This document shows, in pieces, positions 23,440 through 59,149 of a DNA stretch of 64,000 nucleotides. A program made the translations under genes and the position numbers. A model generated the notes under the pieces. The model was not told the origin of the DNA. It searched no databases and saw nothing but the letters and a program-made list of their open reading frames with translations. Origin of the DNA: Streptomyces violaceusniger Tu 4113 (GTDB lineage Bacteria; Actinomycetota; Actinomycetes; Streptomycetales; Streptomycetaceae). Position 1 is the first letter of the stretch, and every line of letters starts with the position of its first letter. The DNA is taken from NCBI RefSeq assembly GCF_000147815.2, contig NC_015957.1, forward strand, positions 3,038,001 to 3,102,000, read 5' to 3'.

Positions 23440-24087
23440 ATGAAGATCTCCGCTGACGCGCTGTTGTTCGACAACGACGGAACCCTCGTCTCCTCCCTGG
23501 ACTCGGTGCATCGCTGCTGGACCCGCTGGGCCGAGGAGCAGGGGATTCCGGCGGAGGACTTCGCCCGGGTCGAGCTGCACGGCCGCCCGGCCGACGACAT
23601 CATCGCCGATCTGCTCCCCGCCGACCGTGCCCCGCGGGCCCGGGCGCGCATCGACGAGCTGGAGCTGGAGGACGTACCGGGCGGGGTGAAGCTGCTCCCC
23701 GGCACCGCCGAATTGCTGGCGGGGCTGCCCGCCGCGCGCTGGGCCGTGGTGACCTCCGCCAACCGCCCGCTGGCCGAGGCCCGCCTGGCCGAGGTGGCGA
23801 TACGCCCGGGGACCCTGATCACCTCCGACGACATCACCCGCGGCAAGCCCGACCCCGAGCCCTTCCTGCTGGCGGCCGAGCGGCTCGGAGTCGACCCGGC
23901 ACGCTGTGTGGTCTTCGAGGACGCCCCGGCCGGGCTCGCGGCGGGCCGCGCGGCCGGGATGCGGACCGTGGCATTGACCACAACGACCGCCCGCGAGGAG
24001 CTGGTCGCCGACATCGTGGTCGAGGACCTGTCGGCCGTGTCCGCACGGCTCCTCGACGGGGGCGTGGAGATCACCTGCCGGGTCTGA
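23440..24087 (+). CDS. HAD-superfamily phosphatase (subfamily IA)
   Basis: 215 residues. HAD motif I LLFDNDGTLVSS (Asp11 nucleophile, Asp13), motif II VVTSANRPLAEARL, motif III Lys in ITRGKPDPEPF, and motif IV VVFEDAPAGLAAGRAAGM. The helical cap inserts after motif I, as in phosphoglycolate and sugar-phosphate phosphatases. HGRPADDIIADLL resembles sugar phosphatases. A small phosphorylated metabolite is likely, but the exact one is unknown. It diverges from the membrane-protein pair. Confidence 0.9.
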   Translation: MKISADALLFDNDGTLVSSLDSVHRCWTRWAEEQGIPAEDFARVELHGRPADDIIADLLPADRAPRARARIDELELEDVPGGVKLLPGTAELLAGLPAARWAVVTSANRPLAEARLAEVAIRPGTLITSDDITRGKPDPEPFLLAAERLGVDPARCVVFEDAPAGLAAGRAAGMRTVALTTTTAREELVADIVVEDLSAVSARLLDGGVEITCRV

Positions 24088-24133
24088 ACCGGACCCGGCG
24101 CCCCCTCCCACTGTCCACGGACCGGTCAAGGAC

Positions 24134-24190
24134 GTCCGCTATACGGACATGCTTGATGGGTCCGTACGCGTGTCTGGTTTACTTGCAGCC
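24134..24190 (+). promoter_or_regulatory. Promoter and operator-like palindrome before the metNIQ leader
   Basis: GTCCG-CTATA-CGGAC at 24134-24148 is a perfect 5+5 palindrome. Directly after it are TTGATG (24153-24158), a 17-base spacer, and GGTTTA (24176-24181), which form a plausible -35/-10 pair. Initiation would fall at about 24188-24191, exactly on the ATG of the leader peptide, predicting a leaderless transcript. Confidence 0.55.
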
Positions 24191-24277
24191 ATGACCACGA
24201 CGAGCTGCCGCATCCCTGCGACCGAGGCGAACCCCACGCCCGGTGCTCGTTGTCGGTGTCGAATGTGTGACTGCTGA
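24191..24277 (+). CDS. Cysteine-rich leader peptide upstream of metNIQ
   Basis: A 28-codon ORF whose last eleven residues read GARCRCRMCDC: five cysteines in all (positions 6, 21, 23, 26, 28), four packed into the final eight codons. This composition is extreme for Streptomyces proteins, and the reading frame starts at the predicted transcription start, with no ribosome site (leaderless). Cys-rich leader ORFs that sense cysteinyl-tRNA by ribosome stalling are known upstream of sulfur genes in Actinobacteria. Here the downstream operon imports methionine. Control of metN by cysteine supply is therefore a reasoned inference. Confidence 0.7.
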   Translation: MTTTSCRIPATEANPTPGARCRCRMCDC

Positions 24278-24430
24278 GGGCCCCTGCCCGAGCCTCGCGC
24301 CCCGAAGCGAGACCGGCTGAGCCGGACCCGTGCGCCCAGCGCGCCGGGCCGCGCCGCCCCGCGTCACCGGAACCCGAAACGCGCCCACACATCGCGCGTC
24401 TCCTCGGGTCCGCCCTGCCGCGTTCGGAAA

Positions 24431-24493
24431 ATGAACGAGCCGTGCCCGGCGGCACCAACCGCCATGCACTCAACAGTGACGGAAACCCTGTGA
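24431..24493 (+). CDS. Short ORF translationally overlapping the metN start
   Basis: Twenty codons (MNEPCPAAPTAMHSTVTETL), whose TGA stop overlaps the metN GTG start in GTGA. Ribosomes finishing this ORF could restart on metN, which itself has only a weak ribosome site. It holds one cysteine codon. Whether it is really translated is unproven. An internal ATG would give a nine-residue version with the same stop. Confidence 0.4.
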   Translation: MNEPCPAAPTAMHSTVTETL

Positions 24494-25545
24494 TCACCAC
24501 CACGGACCTGACCAAGGTCTACCGCTCACGAGGCCGCGAGGTCACCGCCCTCGACGGCGTCGATCTGCATGTCCGCGAGGGTGAGGTGTACGGCGTCGTC
24601 GGCCAGAGCGGCGCCGGGAAGTCCACCCTCATCCGCTGCGTCAACCTTCTGGAGCGCCCCACCTCCGGCACGGTCACCGTGGCCGGCCAGGACCTGACCG
24701 CACTCGCCGGGCGCCGCCAGAGCGCCGGCTCCGCGCTGCGCCAGGCCCGCAGCCGTATCGGCATGGTGTTCCAGCACTTCAACCTGGTCTCCTCGCGCAC
24801 CGTGCGGGACAACGTCGAGCTGCCCCTGGAGATCCTCGGCGTCTCCGGCAAGGAGCGCACCCGCAAGGCCCTGGAGCTGCTGGAGCTGGTGAGCCTCAGC
24901 GACAAGGCCAAGGCGTACCCCGCGCAGCTCTCCGGTGGCCAGAAGCAGCGCGTCGGCATCGCCCGCGCGCTCGCCGGTGACCCCAAGGTGCTGCTCTCGG
25001 ACGAGGCGACCTCCGCGCTCGACCCCGAGACCACCCGCTCGATCCTGCAACTGCTGCGCGACCTCAATGAGCAGCTCGGCCTGACCGTGCTGCTCATCAC
25101 GCACGAGATGGACGTCGTCAAGACGATCTGCGACTCGGCCGCGCTGATGCGCGACGGCCGCATCGTGGAGTCCGGCCAGGTCAGCGAGTTGCTGGCGACG
25201 CCCGGCTCCGAGCTGGCCCAGGAGCTCTTCCCGGTCGGCGGGGTGCCCTCGGGCGAGGACCGTACGGTCGTGGACGTCACCTTCCAGGGCGAGGCGGCCA
25301 CCAAGCCGGTCATCTCCCAGCTCTCCCGTACGTACAACATCGACATCTCGATCCTGGGCGCCGCGATGGACACCGTCGGCGGCCACCAGGTCGGCCGGAT
25401 GCGGATCGAGCTGCCCGGCCGGTTCGAGGAGAACGTCGTCCCGATCGGCTTCCTGCGGGAGCAGGGCCTGCAGGTCGATGTGGCGGCCATCGCCGACGGC
25501 CCGCGCGCGAACCCGACCCCGCTGCTCAAGGAGGGCGCCAAGTGA
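24490..25545 (+). CDS. metN: Methionine ABC importer, ATP-binding protein MetN
   Basis: Energises methionine uptake. 351 residues: Walker A GQSGAGKS at 38-45, Q-loop MVFQHFNLV, ABC signature QLSGGQKQRVGIARAL, a Walker B segment reading VLLSDEATSALDPE, and switch His in LLITHEMDV. The C-terminal 80 residues form the NIL domain that binds methionine and lets it inhibit transport (DVTFQGEAATKPVISQL onward). GTG start chosen at the ABC fold's first strand; an upstream in-frame start would overlap the leader region. The stop overlaps the metI start (GTGA). Confidence 0.95.
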   Translation: MITTTDLTKVYRSRGREVTALDGVDLHVREGEVYGVVGQSGAGKSTLIRCVNLLERPTSGTVTVAGQDLTALAGRRQSAGSALRQARSRIGMVFQHFNLVSSRTVRDNVELPLEILGVSGKERTRKALELLELVSLSDKAKAYPAQLSGGQKQRVGIARALAGDPKVLLSDEATSALDPETTRSILQLLRDLNEQLGLTVLLITHEMDVVKTICDSAALMRDGRIVESGQVSELLATPGSELAQELFPVGGVPSGEDRTVVDVTFQGEAATKPVISQLSRTYNIDISILGAAMDTVGGHQVGRMRIELPGRFEENVVPIGFLREQGLQVDVAAIADGPRANPTPLLKEGAK

Positions 25546-26330
25546 CCTGGTCCGAGATGGAGCCCCTGCTGGAGCAGGCCTGTTGGGACACCCTCTACAT
25601 GGTCGGCTGGTCGGCGGTGATCGCCGTCGTCGGCGGACTGCCGCTCGGTGTGCTGCTGGTCCTCACCGACCGCGGCGGAGTGCTGCAGAACGTCGTGGTG
25701 AACAAGGTCGTCGGGCAGATCGTCAACGTCGCCCGCTCGATGCCGTTCATCATCCTGATGGTCGCCCTGATCTCCTTCACCCGCGCGATCGTGGGCACCA
25801 CCATCGGCCCCGAGGCCGCGATCGTGCCCCTGGCCATCGGCGCCATCCCCTTCTACGCCCGGCTCGTGGAGACCTCGGTGCGCGAGGTGGACGGCGGGCT
25901 GGTCGAGGCCGTGCAGTCGATGGGCGGCTCCACCTGGGCCGTCGTCCGCAAGGTGCTGCTGCCCGAGTCGCTGCCCGCGCTGATCTCCAGCGCCACCACC
26001 ACGATCGTCGCGCTCATCGGCTACTCCGCGATGGCCGGCACGGTCGGCGCCGGTGGCCTCGGTGACCTGGCGGTCCGCTACGGCTATCTGCGGTTCGAGA
26101 CCAAGCTGATGTGGATCACCGTCGTCATCCTCGCGGTGGTCATCTCCGTCATCCAGTTCGCGGGCGATCTCGCCGCCCGCGGCCTGTCGCACCGCGGCCG
26201 CTCCTCGGTCGCCCCGCGGCTGGTGCTGCTGCGCGGCGGCGCGTCCCGGGCCGGGAAGCCCGCTCCGGCCCCGGAGCCGCAGGCCGCGCCCGCCGAGATC
26301 GAGTCCGTGGAGCCGACCAAGGTCCCCTGA
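25542..26330 (+). CDS. metI: Methionine ABC importer, permease MetI
   Basis: 262 residues with five predicted membrane helices. The permease coupling loop that contacts MetN is visible as VDGGLVEAVQSMGGSTWAVV followed by KVLLPESLP (EAAxxxG-like motif near residues 120-145). RSMPFIILMVALISF is the substrate-channel helix. The C-terminal 50 residues after the last helix are a Pro/Ala-rich cytoplasmic tail, longer than in E. coli MetI. GTG start overlaps the metN stop. Confidence 0.94.
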   Translation: MTWSEMEPLLEQACWDTLYMVGWSAVIAVVGGLPLGVLLVLTDRGGVLQNVVVNKVVGQIVNVARSMPFIILMVALISFTRAIVGTTIGPEAAIVPLAIGAIPFYARLVETSVREVDGGLVEAVQSMGGSTWAVVRKVLLPESLPALISSATTTIVALIGYSAMAGTVGAGGLGDLAVRYGYLRFETKLMWITVVILAVVISVIQFAGDLAARGLSHRGRSSVAPRLVLLRGGASRAGKPAPAPEPQAAPAEIESVEPTKVP

Positions 26331-26426
26331 GCCCCCACCCGCCTCCGTACCCCCCGTATCACCCGCCCGTCATTCCGCTTCCGCACCCGCGGCGGATTCG
26401 TGCGCCCTCGAAGAAAGGCACTTTTC

Positions 26427-27248
26427 GTGCGTAACACCACCAAGACCGTCACCACCGTCCTCGCCGCCGGCGCGCTCGCCCTCGGCGCCGCCGCCTGCAG
26501 TCCCTCGTCCTCCAACGACAAGAACGGCGCGCTGGTCGTCGCCGCGAGCCCGGTCCCGCACGCGGAGATACTCAACTACGTCAAGGACCACCTGGCCGAC
26601 AAGGCGGGCCTCAAGCTGGAGGTCCGGGAGTTCACCGACTACAACACGCCGAACCTCTCCACCCAGGACGGCTCGGTCGGCGCCAACTACTTCCAGAACC
26701 AGCCGTTCCTGGACGACTTCAACAAGAAGAAGGGCACCGACATCGTGCCCGTCGTCACCGTGCACCTCGAGCCGCTCGGCCTCTACTCGCACAAGGTGAA
26801 GAAGGCCGGCGAGCTCAAGAAGGGCGCCACCGTGGCCGTCCCGAGCGACACGGTCAACGAGGCCCGCGCGCTGAAGCTGCTGGACGCGAACGGGGTCATC
26901 AAGCTCAAGAGCGGCGTCGGCAACGAGGCCACCCCCAAGGACATCGTCACCAACCCCAAGGGCCTGAAGTTCAAGGAACTGGAGGCCGCCCAGCTCCCGC
27001 GGTCGCTCGACGACGTGGACGCCGCGGTCGTCAACGGCAACTACGCCATCGAGGCGCACCTCAAGCCCGCCAAGGACGCCATCCTCCTCGAGTCGCCCAA
27101 GAACAACCCGTACGCCAACTTCCTGGCCGTGAAGAAGGGCAACGAGGACGACCCGCGCGTCAAGAAGCTGGCCAAGCTCCTCACCTCCCCCGAGGTGAAG
27201 AAGTACATCAAGGACCAGTACCAGGGCTCCGTGCTGGCGTCCTTCTGA
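26427..27248 (+). CDS. metQ: Methionine-binding lipoprotein MetQ
   Basis: Extracytoplasmic substrate-binding protein delivering methionine to MetNI. 273 residues. The signal peptide ends in lipobox LGAAAC (lipid-modified Cys24), followed by a Ser/Asn-rich linker. The NlpA/MetQ fold starts LVVAASPVPHAEIL. FTDYNTPNLSTQDGSVGANYFQ and DAAVVNGNYAIEA are family signatures that line the ligand site. GTG start with AAGAAAGG 8 bases upstream. It follows metI by 96 bases in the same operon and is followed by a strong hairpin. Confidence 0.95.
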   Translation: MRNTTKTVTTVLAAGALALGAAACSPSSSNDKNGALVVAASPVPHAEILNYVKDHLADKAGLKLEVREFTDYNTPNLSTQDGSVGANYFQNQPFLDDFNKKKGTDIVPVVTVHLEPLGLYSHKVKKAGELKKGATVAVPSDTVNEARALKLLDANGVIKLKSGVGNEATPKDIVTNPKGLKFKELEAAQLPRSLDDVDAAVVNGNYAIEAHLKPAKDAILLESPKNNPYANFLAVKKGNEDDPRVKKLAKLLTSPEVKKYIKDQYQGSVLASF

Positions 27249-52222: not shown

Positions 52223-52294
52223 TGGACGATACTGGGATTGAACCAGTGACCTCTTCCGTGTCAGGGAAGCGCTCTCCCGCTGAGCTAATCGTCC
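52223..52294 (-). tRNA. tRNA-Val (anticodon GAC), copy 1
   Basis: 72 bases. Acceptor GGACGAT/ATCGTCC, D-arm AGCTCAGCGGGAGAGC, anticodon loop CTGACAC, T-arm GGTTCAATCC. CCA is not encoded. Confidence 0.95.
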
Positions 52295-52305
52295 GCGGGA
52301 CTGCG

Positions 52306-52377
52306 TGCGCGATACTGGGATTGAACCAGTGACCTCTTCCGTGTCAGGGAAGCGCTCTCCCGCTGAGCTAATCGCGC
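52306..52377 (-). tRNA. tRNA-Val (anticodon GAC), copy 2, altered acceptor stem
   Basis: Identical to copy 1 through all arms except the acceptor, which is GCGCGAT/ATCGCGC instead of GGACGAT/ATCGTCC. Both strands of the stem have changed together, so pairing is kept. Confidence 0.93.
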
Positions 52378-52419
52378 AGGTGGATCCGCGAGGATCCCAG
52401 GTGGATCCGCAAGGATCCG
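52378..52419. repeat. 21-bp tandem repeat between tRNA copies 2 and 3
   Basis: AGGTGGATCCGCGAGGATCCC followed by AGGTGGATCCGCAAGGATCC: two BamHI-like GGATCC sites per unit. Confidence 0.8.
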
Positions 52420-52421
52420 AG

Positions 52422-52493
52422 TGGACGATACTGGGATTGAACCAGTGACCTCTTCCGTGTCAGGGAAGCGCTCTCCCGCTGAGCTAATCGTCC
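52422..52493 (-). tRNA. tRNA-Val (anticodon GAC), copy 3
   Basis: Same sequence as copy 1, with acceptor GGACGAT/ATCGTCC and loop CTGACAC. CCA is not encoded. Confidence 0.95.
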
Positions 52494-52494
52494 G

Positions 52495-52565
52495 AGGTGG
52501 AGACGGGATTTGAACCCGTGTAGACGGCTTTGCAGGCCGTTGCCTCGCCTCTCGGCCACTCCACC
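52495..52565 (-). tRNA. tRNA-Cys (anticodon GCA)
   Basis: 71 bases. Acceptor GGTGGAG/CTCCACC, anticodon loop CTGCAAA, T-arm GGGTTCAAATCCC, discriminator U, as expected for tRNA-Cys. Confidence 0.95.
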
Positions 52566-52593
52566 AACCGTGGAGGTCGAAACCCCCACTCCG

Positions 52594-52666
52594 AGCGGAC
52601 GACGAGATTCGAACTCGCGACCCTCACCTTGGCAAGGTGATGCTCTACCAACTGAGCCACGTCCGC
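52594..52666 (-). tRNA. tRNA-Gly (anticodon GCC)
   Basis: 73 bases. Acceptor GCGGACG/CGTCCGC, anticodon region CTTGCCAAGG, T-arm GAGTTCGAATCTC. First gene of the five-tRNA cluster in the direction of transcription. Confidence 0.95.
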
Positions 52667-59077: not shown

Positions 59078-59149
59078 GGGCGATTAGCTCAGTGGGAGAG
59101 CGCTTCGTTCACACCGAAGAGGTCACTGGTTCGAACCCAGTATCGCCCA
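59078..59149 (+). tRNA. tRNA-Val (anticodon CAC)
   Basis: 72 bases. Acceptor GGGCGAT/ATCGCCC, anticodon loop TTCACAC (CAC, reads GTG), T-arm GGTTCGAACCC. It is highly similar to the tRNA-Val GAC copies 6.5 kb away. Confidence 0.95.

Follow-up and report, generated by a model that had tools for sequence, protein, structure and literature searches.

What does a 28-codon, cysteine-rich open reading frame (ORF) do in front of the genes of a predicted methionine importer? The question is raised by a locus in a 64,000-nucleotide stretch of Streptomyces violaceusniger Tu 4113 DNA (NC_015957.1, positions 3,038,001 to 3,102,000; hereafter the window), where such an ORF lies upstream of metN, metI and metQ. 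The initial annotation of this DNA proposed that charged Cys-tRNA, acting through translation of the ORF, would control methionine import. Here we present comparative evidence that the ORF quite probably is a leaderless upstream ORF (uORF) through which ribosome stalling attenuates metNIQ in response to sulfur amino acids.

The leader ORF and the genes downstream

The coding features of the locus are the following:

24191-24277, plus strand: leader ORF of 28 codons with five Cys, orthologue of S. lividans metL (from conservation and the published orthologue)
24251-24274, plus strand: Cys codon cluster C-R-C-R-M-C-D-C, the presumed stall site
24490-25545, plus strand: metN, ABC transporter ATPase with NIL domain
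25542-26330, plus strand: metI, permease (NF008049, 221 bits against a cut-off of 212)
26400-27248, plus strand: metQ, NlpA lipoprotein (PF03180, 313.8 bits)

The MetN equivalog model and the MetQ models scored below their cut-offs, and methionine is therefore assigned as the substrate on the basis of family and operon. The leader ORF encodes the peptide MTTTSCRIPATEANPTPGARCRCRMCDC, with Cys residues at positions 6, 21, 23, 26 and 28, four of which lie within the final eight codons. Of the 512 short ORFs of the whole window (12–50 codons, both strands, one per stop), the leader ORF alone has four or more Cys among its final eight codons.

The ORF with its Cys codons, the hexamers TTGATG (24153-24158) and GGTTTA (24176-24181) with their 17-nt spacer, and the palindrome at 24134-24148 upstream are all present where the initial annotation had put them. 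Its description of the ORF as unannotatable has to be corrected, as the S. lividans orthologue has already been published as metL (PMC8079986). Searches of the window peptide against NCBIfam and Pfam identified no known protein family. The Rfam matches in the window were six tRNAs (a five-gene cluster at 52223-52666 on the minus strand and a sixth gene at 59078-59149 on the plus strand). Five hits were obtained for the region 23950-24600, all far below the gathering scores, and a known riboswitch or other Rfam cis-regulatory RNA was rejected for want of a match above the gathering score.

Conservation of the leader in Streptomyces and in a second family

A search of 150 congeneric genomes detected MetN in 143. 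In the alignment of Streptomyces leaders that the initial annotation had proposed, the leader ORF is kept upstream of metN in 30 of 30 congeneric loci (the best 30 of the 143 were opened), with a peptide consensus of approximately MTTTSxRxxATEAxxxPGARCMCRMCxF. The alignments are almost invariant at the box TCTGNTTTACT, at the ATG, over much of the ORF, at GAGGGCC (which spans the stop and the bases following it), at a hairpin whose loop is GCCCCGAA (hairpin T, see below) and directly before metN; the stretch between hairpin T and metN varies in length and sequence. At the level of the family, 117 unique leaders with the leader ORF were obtained (loci L001-L126, 124 of which were recognized, L066 and L122 not, and then collapsed). 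The search pattern required CG[AC]ATG[TC]G and so selected for Arg-Met; Cys counts elsewhere were not selected. The peptide identical to that of S. lividans metL (MSTTSDRTPATEATTTPGARCMCRRMCAF in the available part of PMC8079986) is encoded at locus L020. As metL (SLIV_29928) also occupies the same place before metNIQ, it is, by sequence and position, the orthologue of the leader ORF of the window.

A covariance model built from the 30 congeneric leaders matched 120 of 150 family genomes at E ≤ 1, where matches above about 0.01 are probably due to chance, and 85 of 150 at E < 1e-3, with one match each (hand count of the listing). The own genome contains one match. At the class level, 23 of 246 genomes matched at E ≤ 0.01, namely 22 of the own genus and one (G511) of another actinobacterial family. 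In this second family, 9 of 120 genomes matched at E ≤ 0.05; seven of the nine matches have a leader ORF before metN with an unrelated body and the same end (e.g., MTAVRPCPTRRPRAPRAMGCTCRCRMCSH), so that it is mainly the CRMC-type end that is retained. These seven also keep GAGGGCC and the hairpin, which in two cases reads CTCAC/GTGAG. A leader ORF of this kind was absent from the two weakest matches. MetN itself is present in 62 of the 120 second-family genomes, and opening the best 30 of these loci revealed further Cys-rich leader ORFs with other ends, such as MTADLMRRRPHRAMRFACRRTCCC and MTVDVMCDGAMARLTRGVMMCCCRPA; the ends seen include CRRTCCC, MMCCCRPA and PCMCRCRRHPV. Of the opened loci, 8 of the 30 had no or no clear leader ORF candidate.

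Cysteine and methionine codons

All 117 family leader peptides contain at least one Cys (range 1–6) and 115 contain at least two, the remaining two retaining a single Cys. Internal Met residues number 1–5 per leader, one of which was fixed by the search pattern. Outside the core, Cys accounts for 86 of 1989 residues (4.3%) and Met for 3.1% (97 distinct peptides); for reference, four genes of the window have 7 Cys and 14 Met codons among 1114. The codon directly before CG[AC]ATG is Cys in 96 of the 117 leaders and the codon two before is Met in 68. In 19 leaders, Arg takes the place of the final Cys. The leader of the window and those of its three nearest relatives (together L001-L004) combine one internal Met with four or five Cys.

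The 22 second-family ORFs, which were picked from the 30 opened loci by Cys near the ORF end and thus chosen for Cys, not for Met, contain 11.6% Cys and 11.4% Met. Several of them (L160, L165, L167, L170, L172, and L173) carry repeated Met-Cys units, e.g., VMCRGARMCGMSRMCAMGGMPSTG, and many Met codons, and these Met-rich ORFs are the main hint of a Met co-signal. On these counts, we read the signal as sulfur amino acids in general rather than Cys alone, although the support for Cys is the stronger. The original proposal of Cys-controlled methionine import thus retains its conserved, probably leaderless Cys-rich peptide, but Cys as the sole signal may be too narrow, the Met codons being kept too.

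Promoter, leaderless start and upstream palindrome

Two elements precede the ORF:

24173-24183, plus strand: -10-type box TCTGGTTTACT, whose spacing to the uORF ATG is fixed in 112 of 117 leaders
24134-24148, no strand assigned: palindrome GTCCGCTATACGGAC, candidate NdgR-like activator operator, centered 49.5 bp before the uORF ATG

The N of the box TCTGNTTTACT sits 13–14 nt before the ATG in those 112 leaders, and a fixed distance of this kind is the geometry expected of a leaderless transcript. From this spacing, the leader ORF is probably translated leaderless; a leaderless start has been reported for S. lividans metL (PMC8079986). Of the promoter put forward in the initial annotation, both hexamers are present; the -35 hexamer is not conserved in the congeneric alignment as judged by eye, and a generic sigma-70 scan returned no promoter at the leader region.

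The palindrome, in the form GTCC[GA]N5[CT]GGAC, occurs in 92 of 117 leaders, with its center 48.5–51.5 bp (58 leaders) or 57.5–60.5 bp (34 leaders) before the ATG. These two position classes are about one helical turn apart, and the phasing suggests an activator. A 15-bp GTCC-N7-GGAC palindrome near the promoter, as found in these 92 leaders, is characteristic of NdgR operators, which lie before sulfur and amino-acid genes, and the NdgR ChIP site GTCCGCCATGCGGAC is equal in form to the leader palindrome (PMC4340878). NdgR binds cysteine, methionine and branched-chain genes; metNIQ is absent from the 19 bound loci and 34 regulon genes in the available part of that study, which used one growth condition (PMC4340878).

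A looser palindrome pattern gave 37 sites in the own genome against 10 for the reversed control. Six of 11 other palindrome loci that were fetched yielded eight reading frames, with matches to a class-V aminotransferase, DUF5753 and phosphofructokinase and five without a match, and these other own-genome palindromes did not reveal a sulfur regulon. Another palindrome of the own genome, TGTCCGGGATGCGGACA (L128, near position 1509), is located approximately 300 bp from a class-V aminotransferase reading frame. Oxidative stress raises SCO1557-1559 together with cysM in S. coelicolor (PMC4991794). A conserved block, CTGCCGCGTTC in the window (24415-24425) and in the aligned leaders and CCGTGCCGCGTTCCG before SCO1559, has been predicted as a SenR DNA site though it lies inside the transcribed leader; SCO1559 is not among the fragments tested for SenR binding in the available part of the same study (PMC4991794).

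RNA structure of the leader

The leader RNA of the window folds better than 100 of 100 shuffled sequences (z = -3.89). The following structures were delineated:

24197-24253, plus strand: three-way junction inside the ORF (P1 24197-24205/24245-24253, P2 24209-24212/24217-24220, P3 24221-24229/24237-24244)
24294-24311, plus strand: hairpin T, CTCGC-GCCCCGAA-GCGAG, in 100 of 117 leaders
24442-24469, plus strand: hairpin H2, before the metN ribosome-binding region, with 3 of 8 pairs changed on both sides among 30 leaders
24267-24281, plus strand: 5' arm of the proposed stem S (GTGAC 24267-24271, GGGC 24278-24281)
24356-24367, plus strand: 3' arm of the proposed stem S (GCCC 24356-24359, GTCAC 24363-24367)

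The junction was evaluated on 63 of 101 distinct uORFs; uORFs that carry insertions were set aside, as were the deeply diverged ones, whose P1 register seems shifted by eye. In these 63 leaders, 97.1% of cells are paired. Both partners have changed in 5 of the 21 pairs, where shuffles gave 2.2 on average and reached the observed number in 1 of 500; one G-C to A-U exchange, common to 18 leaders, constitutes much of this signal. Sliding the partner strand abolishes the pairing, and further pair types were not above shuffles (438 of 500). These comparisons show the three-way junction to be a conserved RNA structure. Hairpin T takes the form CCCGC/GCGGG in three of the 100 leaders that have it.

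Stem S would pair the last Met-Cys codons (plus the GGGC after the stop) with a site in the C-rich leader that is complementary to GCCCCGCG. For X = TGCGCC, GCGCA[CT] is present in 22 leaders, GTCAC in 1 and neither in 6; for X = TGTGAC the counts are 20 with GTCAC, none with GCGCA[CT] and 8 with neither. Neither partner form was found in 9 of 15 CGCGCC leaders and in 11 of 11 TGTCAC leaders. An anchor is present in 109 of 117 leaders, which supplied 90 distinct pairs for a permutation test; the observed mean was reached in 0 of 2000 trials, though the genomes are related and hence not independent. Per genome, at most 5% of shuffles were as good in 15% of 122 leaders, where 5% was expected. 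Stem S is thus likely, not proven, to be real.

The output step and the second small ORF

A scan of 24060-24520 for intrinsic terminators found none on the plus strand and one on the minus strand (0.4 expected), and a classical attenuator with an intrinsic terminator was rejected because there is no terminator-like site on the plus strand. Downstream of the uORF, C exceeds G in 115 of 115 leaders. Stalling was modeled by folding 57 leaders of intermediate length. Accessibility at the start of metN was 0.412 in the free RNA and changed little when the A site was placed on the second Cys (0.439, p 0.14) or on the third (0.436, p 0.09); a control stall position upstream of the Cys cluster gave 0.447 (p 0.01). 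Folding thus lends no support to simple unmasking of the Shine-Dalgarno sequence by a stalled ribosome, as the effect was not significant and the control position did more. Given the lack of a plus-strand terminator, the excess of C over G and the slight change in accessibility, our first guess for the output is Rho-dependent termination relieved by the stalled ribosome; translational control, by analogy with mycobacteria, is the second.

A further small ORF lies directly upstream of metN:

24431-24493, plus strand: 20-codon mini-ORF whose stop overlaps the metN GTG, not conserved and probably incidental

Its position and the overlap with the GTG (24490-24492) are as first described. The accompanying proposal, that this coupled mini-ORF restarts ribosomes on metN, did not survive comparison: an ATG ORF ending in a TGA that overlaps the metN GTG occurs in just 31 of 116 leaders, with mostly unrelated sequences, and the form MNEPCPA is limited to L001-L003. 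What is conserved at this place is hairpin H2 and the ribosome-binding region.

In some relatives, the interval from the Cys-rich leader ORF to metN holds another conserved small ORF, with ends of forms such as RRCRLAHDPQPPGTHC or VLRRLSHLPFPPGTR, both in the own family (L055, L068-L074, and L078) and in the second family (L148, L158, L160, L161, L165, L167, L168, L170, L172, and L173). The PPG near the stop of this ORF suggests a programmed ribosome pause. The PPGT pattern used also caught a few unrelated frames (L012, L015, and L076), and no PPG-ending second small ORF was seen in the window.

A model for the metNIQ leader and its alternatives

In the reading that we favor, transcription would start at or next to the uORF ATG, probably aided by an activator at the palindrome, so that every transcript would first be translated into the 28-codon peptide that ends in the Cys codon cluster with one Met. 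When charged Cys-tRNA is short (in relatives perhaps also Met-tRNA), the ribosome would stall in the cluster. The stalled ribosome would cover the last Cys codons and the stop region, block the formation of stem S with the C-rich site approximately 90 nt downstream, and melt the three-way junction. As in known amino-acid attenuators, the stall is expected to increase metNIQ expression, with Rho-dependent termination in the C-rich, variable leader devoid of an intrinsic terminator as the leading guess for the output. A more specific version of this model, which we consider possible and put forward tentatively, is a two-signal attenuator in which Met and Cys codons are interleaved, so that the leading ribosome would stall whenever one or the other amino acid is scarce. 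The last Cys codons would then double as an arm of the attenuator stem and the ORF body as the junction, for the import of sulfur amino acids in at least two actinobacterial families, with some relatives adding a PPGT-ending leader ORF.

Translational attenuation of the mycobacterial type would assign the output differently. Without a stall, the Cys-Arg-Met-Cys codons TGTCGAATGTG would pair with GCGCACTCGACA just before the metN Shine-Dalgarno sequence, exclude H2 and block initiation, and stalling would free the site. By eye, both sequences hardly vary among congeneric leaders and can form approximately 12 pairs interrupted by a single mismatch, and mycobacterial Cys uORFs have been described as translational (PMC9031893, PMC13236596), but the clade of the window has TCAACA, which adds one further mismatch, other genera alter the GCGCACTCGACA strand while their uORF, by eye, shows no compensating change, and modeled stalling produced no clear change in accessibility. 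We therefore regard this mechanism as rather doubtful. The published reading of S. lividans metL, in which Met codons are sensed and the Cys codons are incidental, draws on a peptide with "several methionines and threonines" (PMC8079986). It fits downstream genes that resemble a methionine importer and the 11.4% Met in 22 second-family uORFs that had not been selected for Met. Against it, the uORF of the window has five Cys and one internal Met, Cys directly before CG[AC]ATG (96 of 117 leaders) is more frequent than Met two codons before (68 of 117), and the Met of Arg-Met was itself fixed by the search pattern, which makes a purely methionine-type attenuator unlikely.

The remaining alternatives do away with codon supply as the signal. 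If the Cys-Arg-Met-Cys end were a tunnel arrest sequence, or a small metal- or thiol-binding peptide, its conservation as a near-constant sequence (CGAATGTG) in two families would be accounted for. That end, however, belonged to the search pattern and the model, the second-family leaders found through MetN end otherwise (CRRTCCC, MMCCCRPA, PCMCRCRRHPV), and the RNA at the end would itself be constrained by pairing if stem S is real; we judge such a peptide quite improbable. Finally, the ORF could be a by-product of a structured RNA, such as an unknown riboswitch, whose junction is open in frame by chance. This would agree with a junction that covaries, with pairing that dictates much of the peptide body and with a peptide that matches no protein family. 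It is hard to reconcile with a start codon at a fixed distance from the box, with in-frame insertions that keep or add Cys, and with second-family ORFs whose bodies are wholly different, and we consider it very improbable.

Relation to known leader peptides

A close parallel is provided by the polycysteine uORFs of mycobacteria (PMC9031893, PMC13236596), which are likewise leaderless, have Cys near the stop, precede sulfur genes and belong to an actinobacterial host. In those uORFs, as far as the available parts of these studies describe them, the Cys codons are contiguous, the downstream genes are for cysteine synthesis and control is translational. In the leaders described here, the Cys codons also cluster near the stop but are interleaved with Arg and Met, the downstream genes metN, metI and metQ serve methionine import and not cysteine metabolism, and folding shows no unmasking of the Shine-Dalgarno sequence. 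Cys leader peptides have also been described for Mycobacterium, P. acnes and B. longum, as short ORFs with Cys near the stop and no obvious terminator; these lie before cys or cbs genes, unlike the metNIQ leader here. For these, too, Rho was suggested, and no conserved RNA structures before methionine operons in Actinobacteria are reported in the available part of that work (PMC1262725).

For metL itself, the published account favors a methionine-type reading with termination left unclear, and its available parts contain no cross-species comparison, RNA structure, Cys argument or operator (PMC8079986). Among the literature matches listed, none treated the Streptomyces metNIQ leader as Cys-responsive or described its RNA structure, most subscription journals lying outside the search. 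The feature is thus known as metL; as far as this search shows, the family-wide conservation of its Cys and Met codons is new, as are the covarying three-way junction inside the ORF, the candidate stem S and the phased NdgR-like operator.

If the model is correct, sulfur sensing by leaderless Cys-rich uORFs, known from mycobacteria, would also operate in Streptomyces and relatives, and ribosome-mediated sulfur sensing would govern methionine import. The published guess that metL is a methionine attenuator becomes directly testable, because the comparative data implicate the Cys codons no less strongly than the Met codons.
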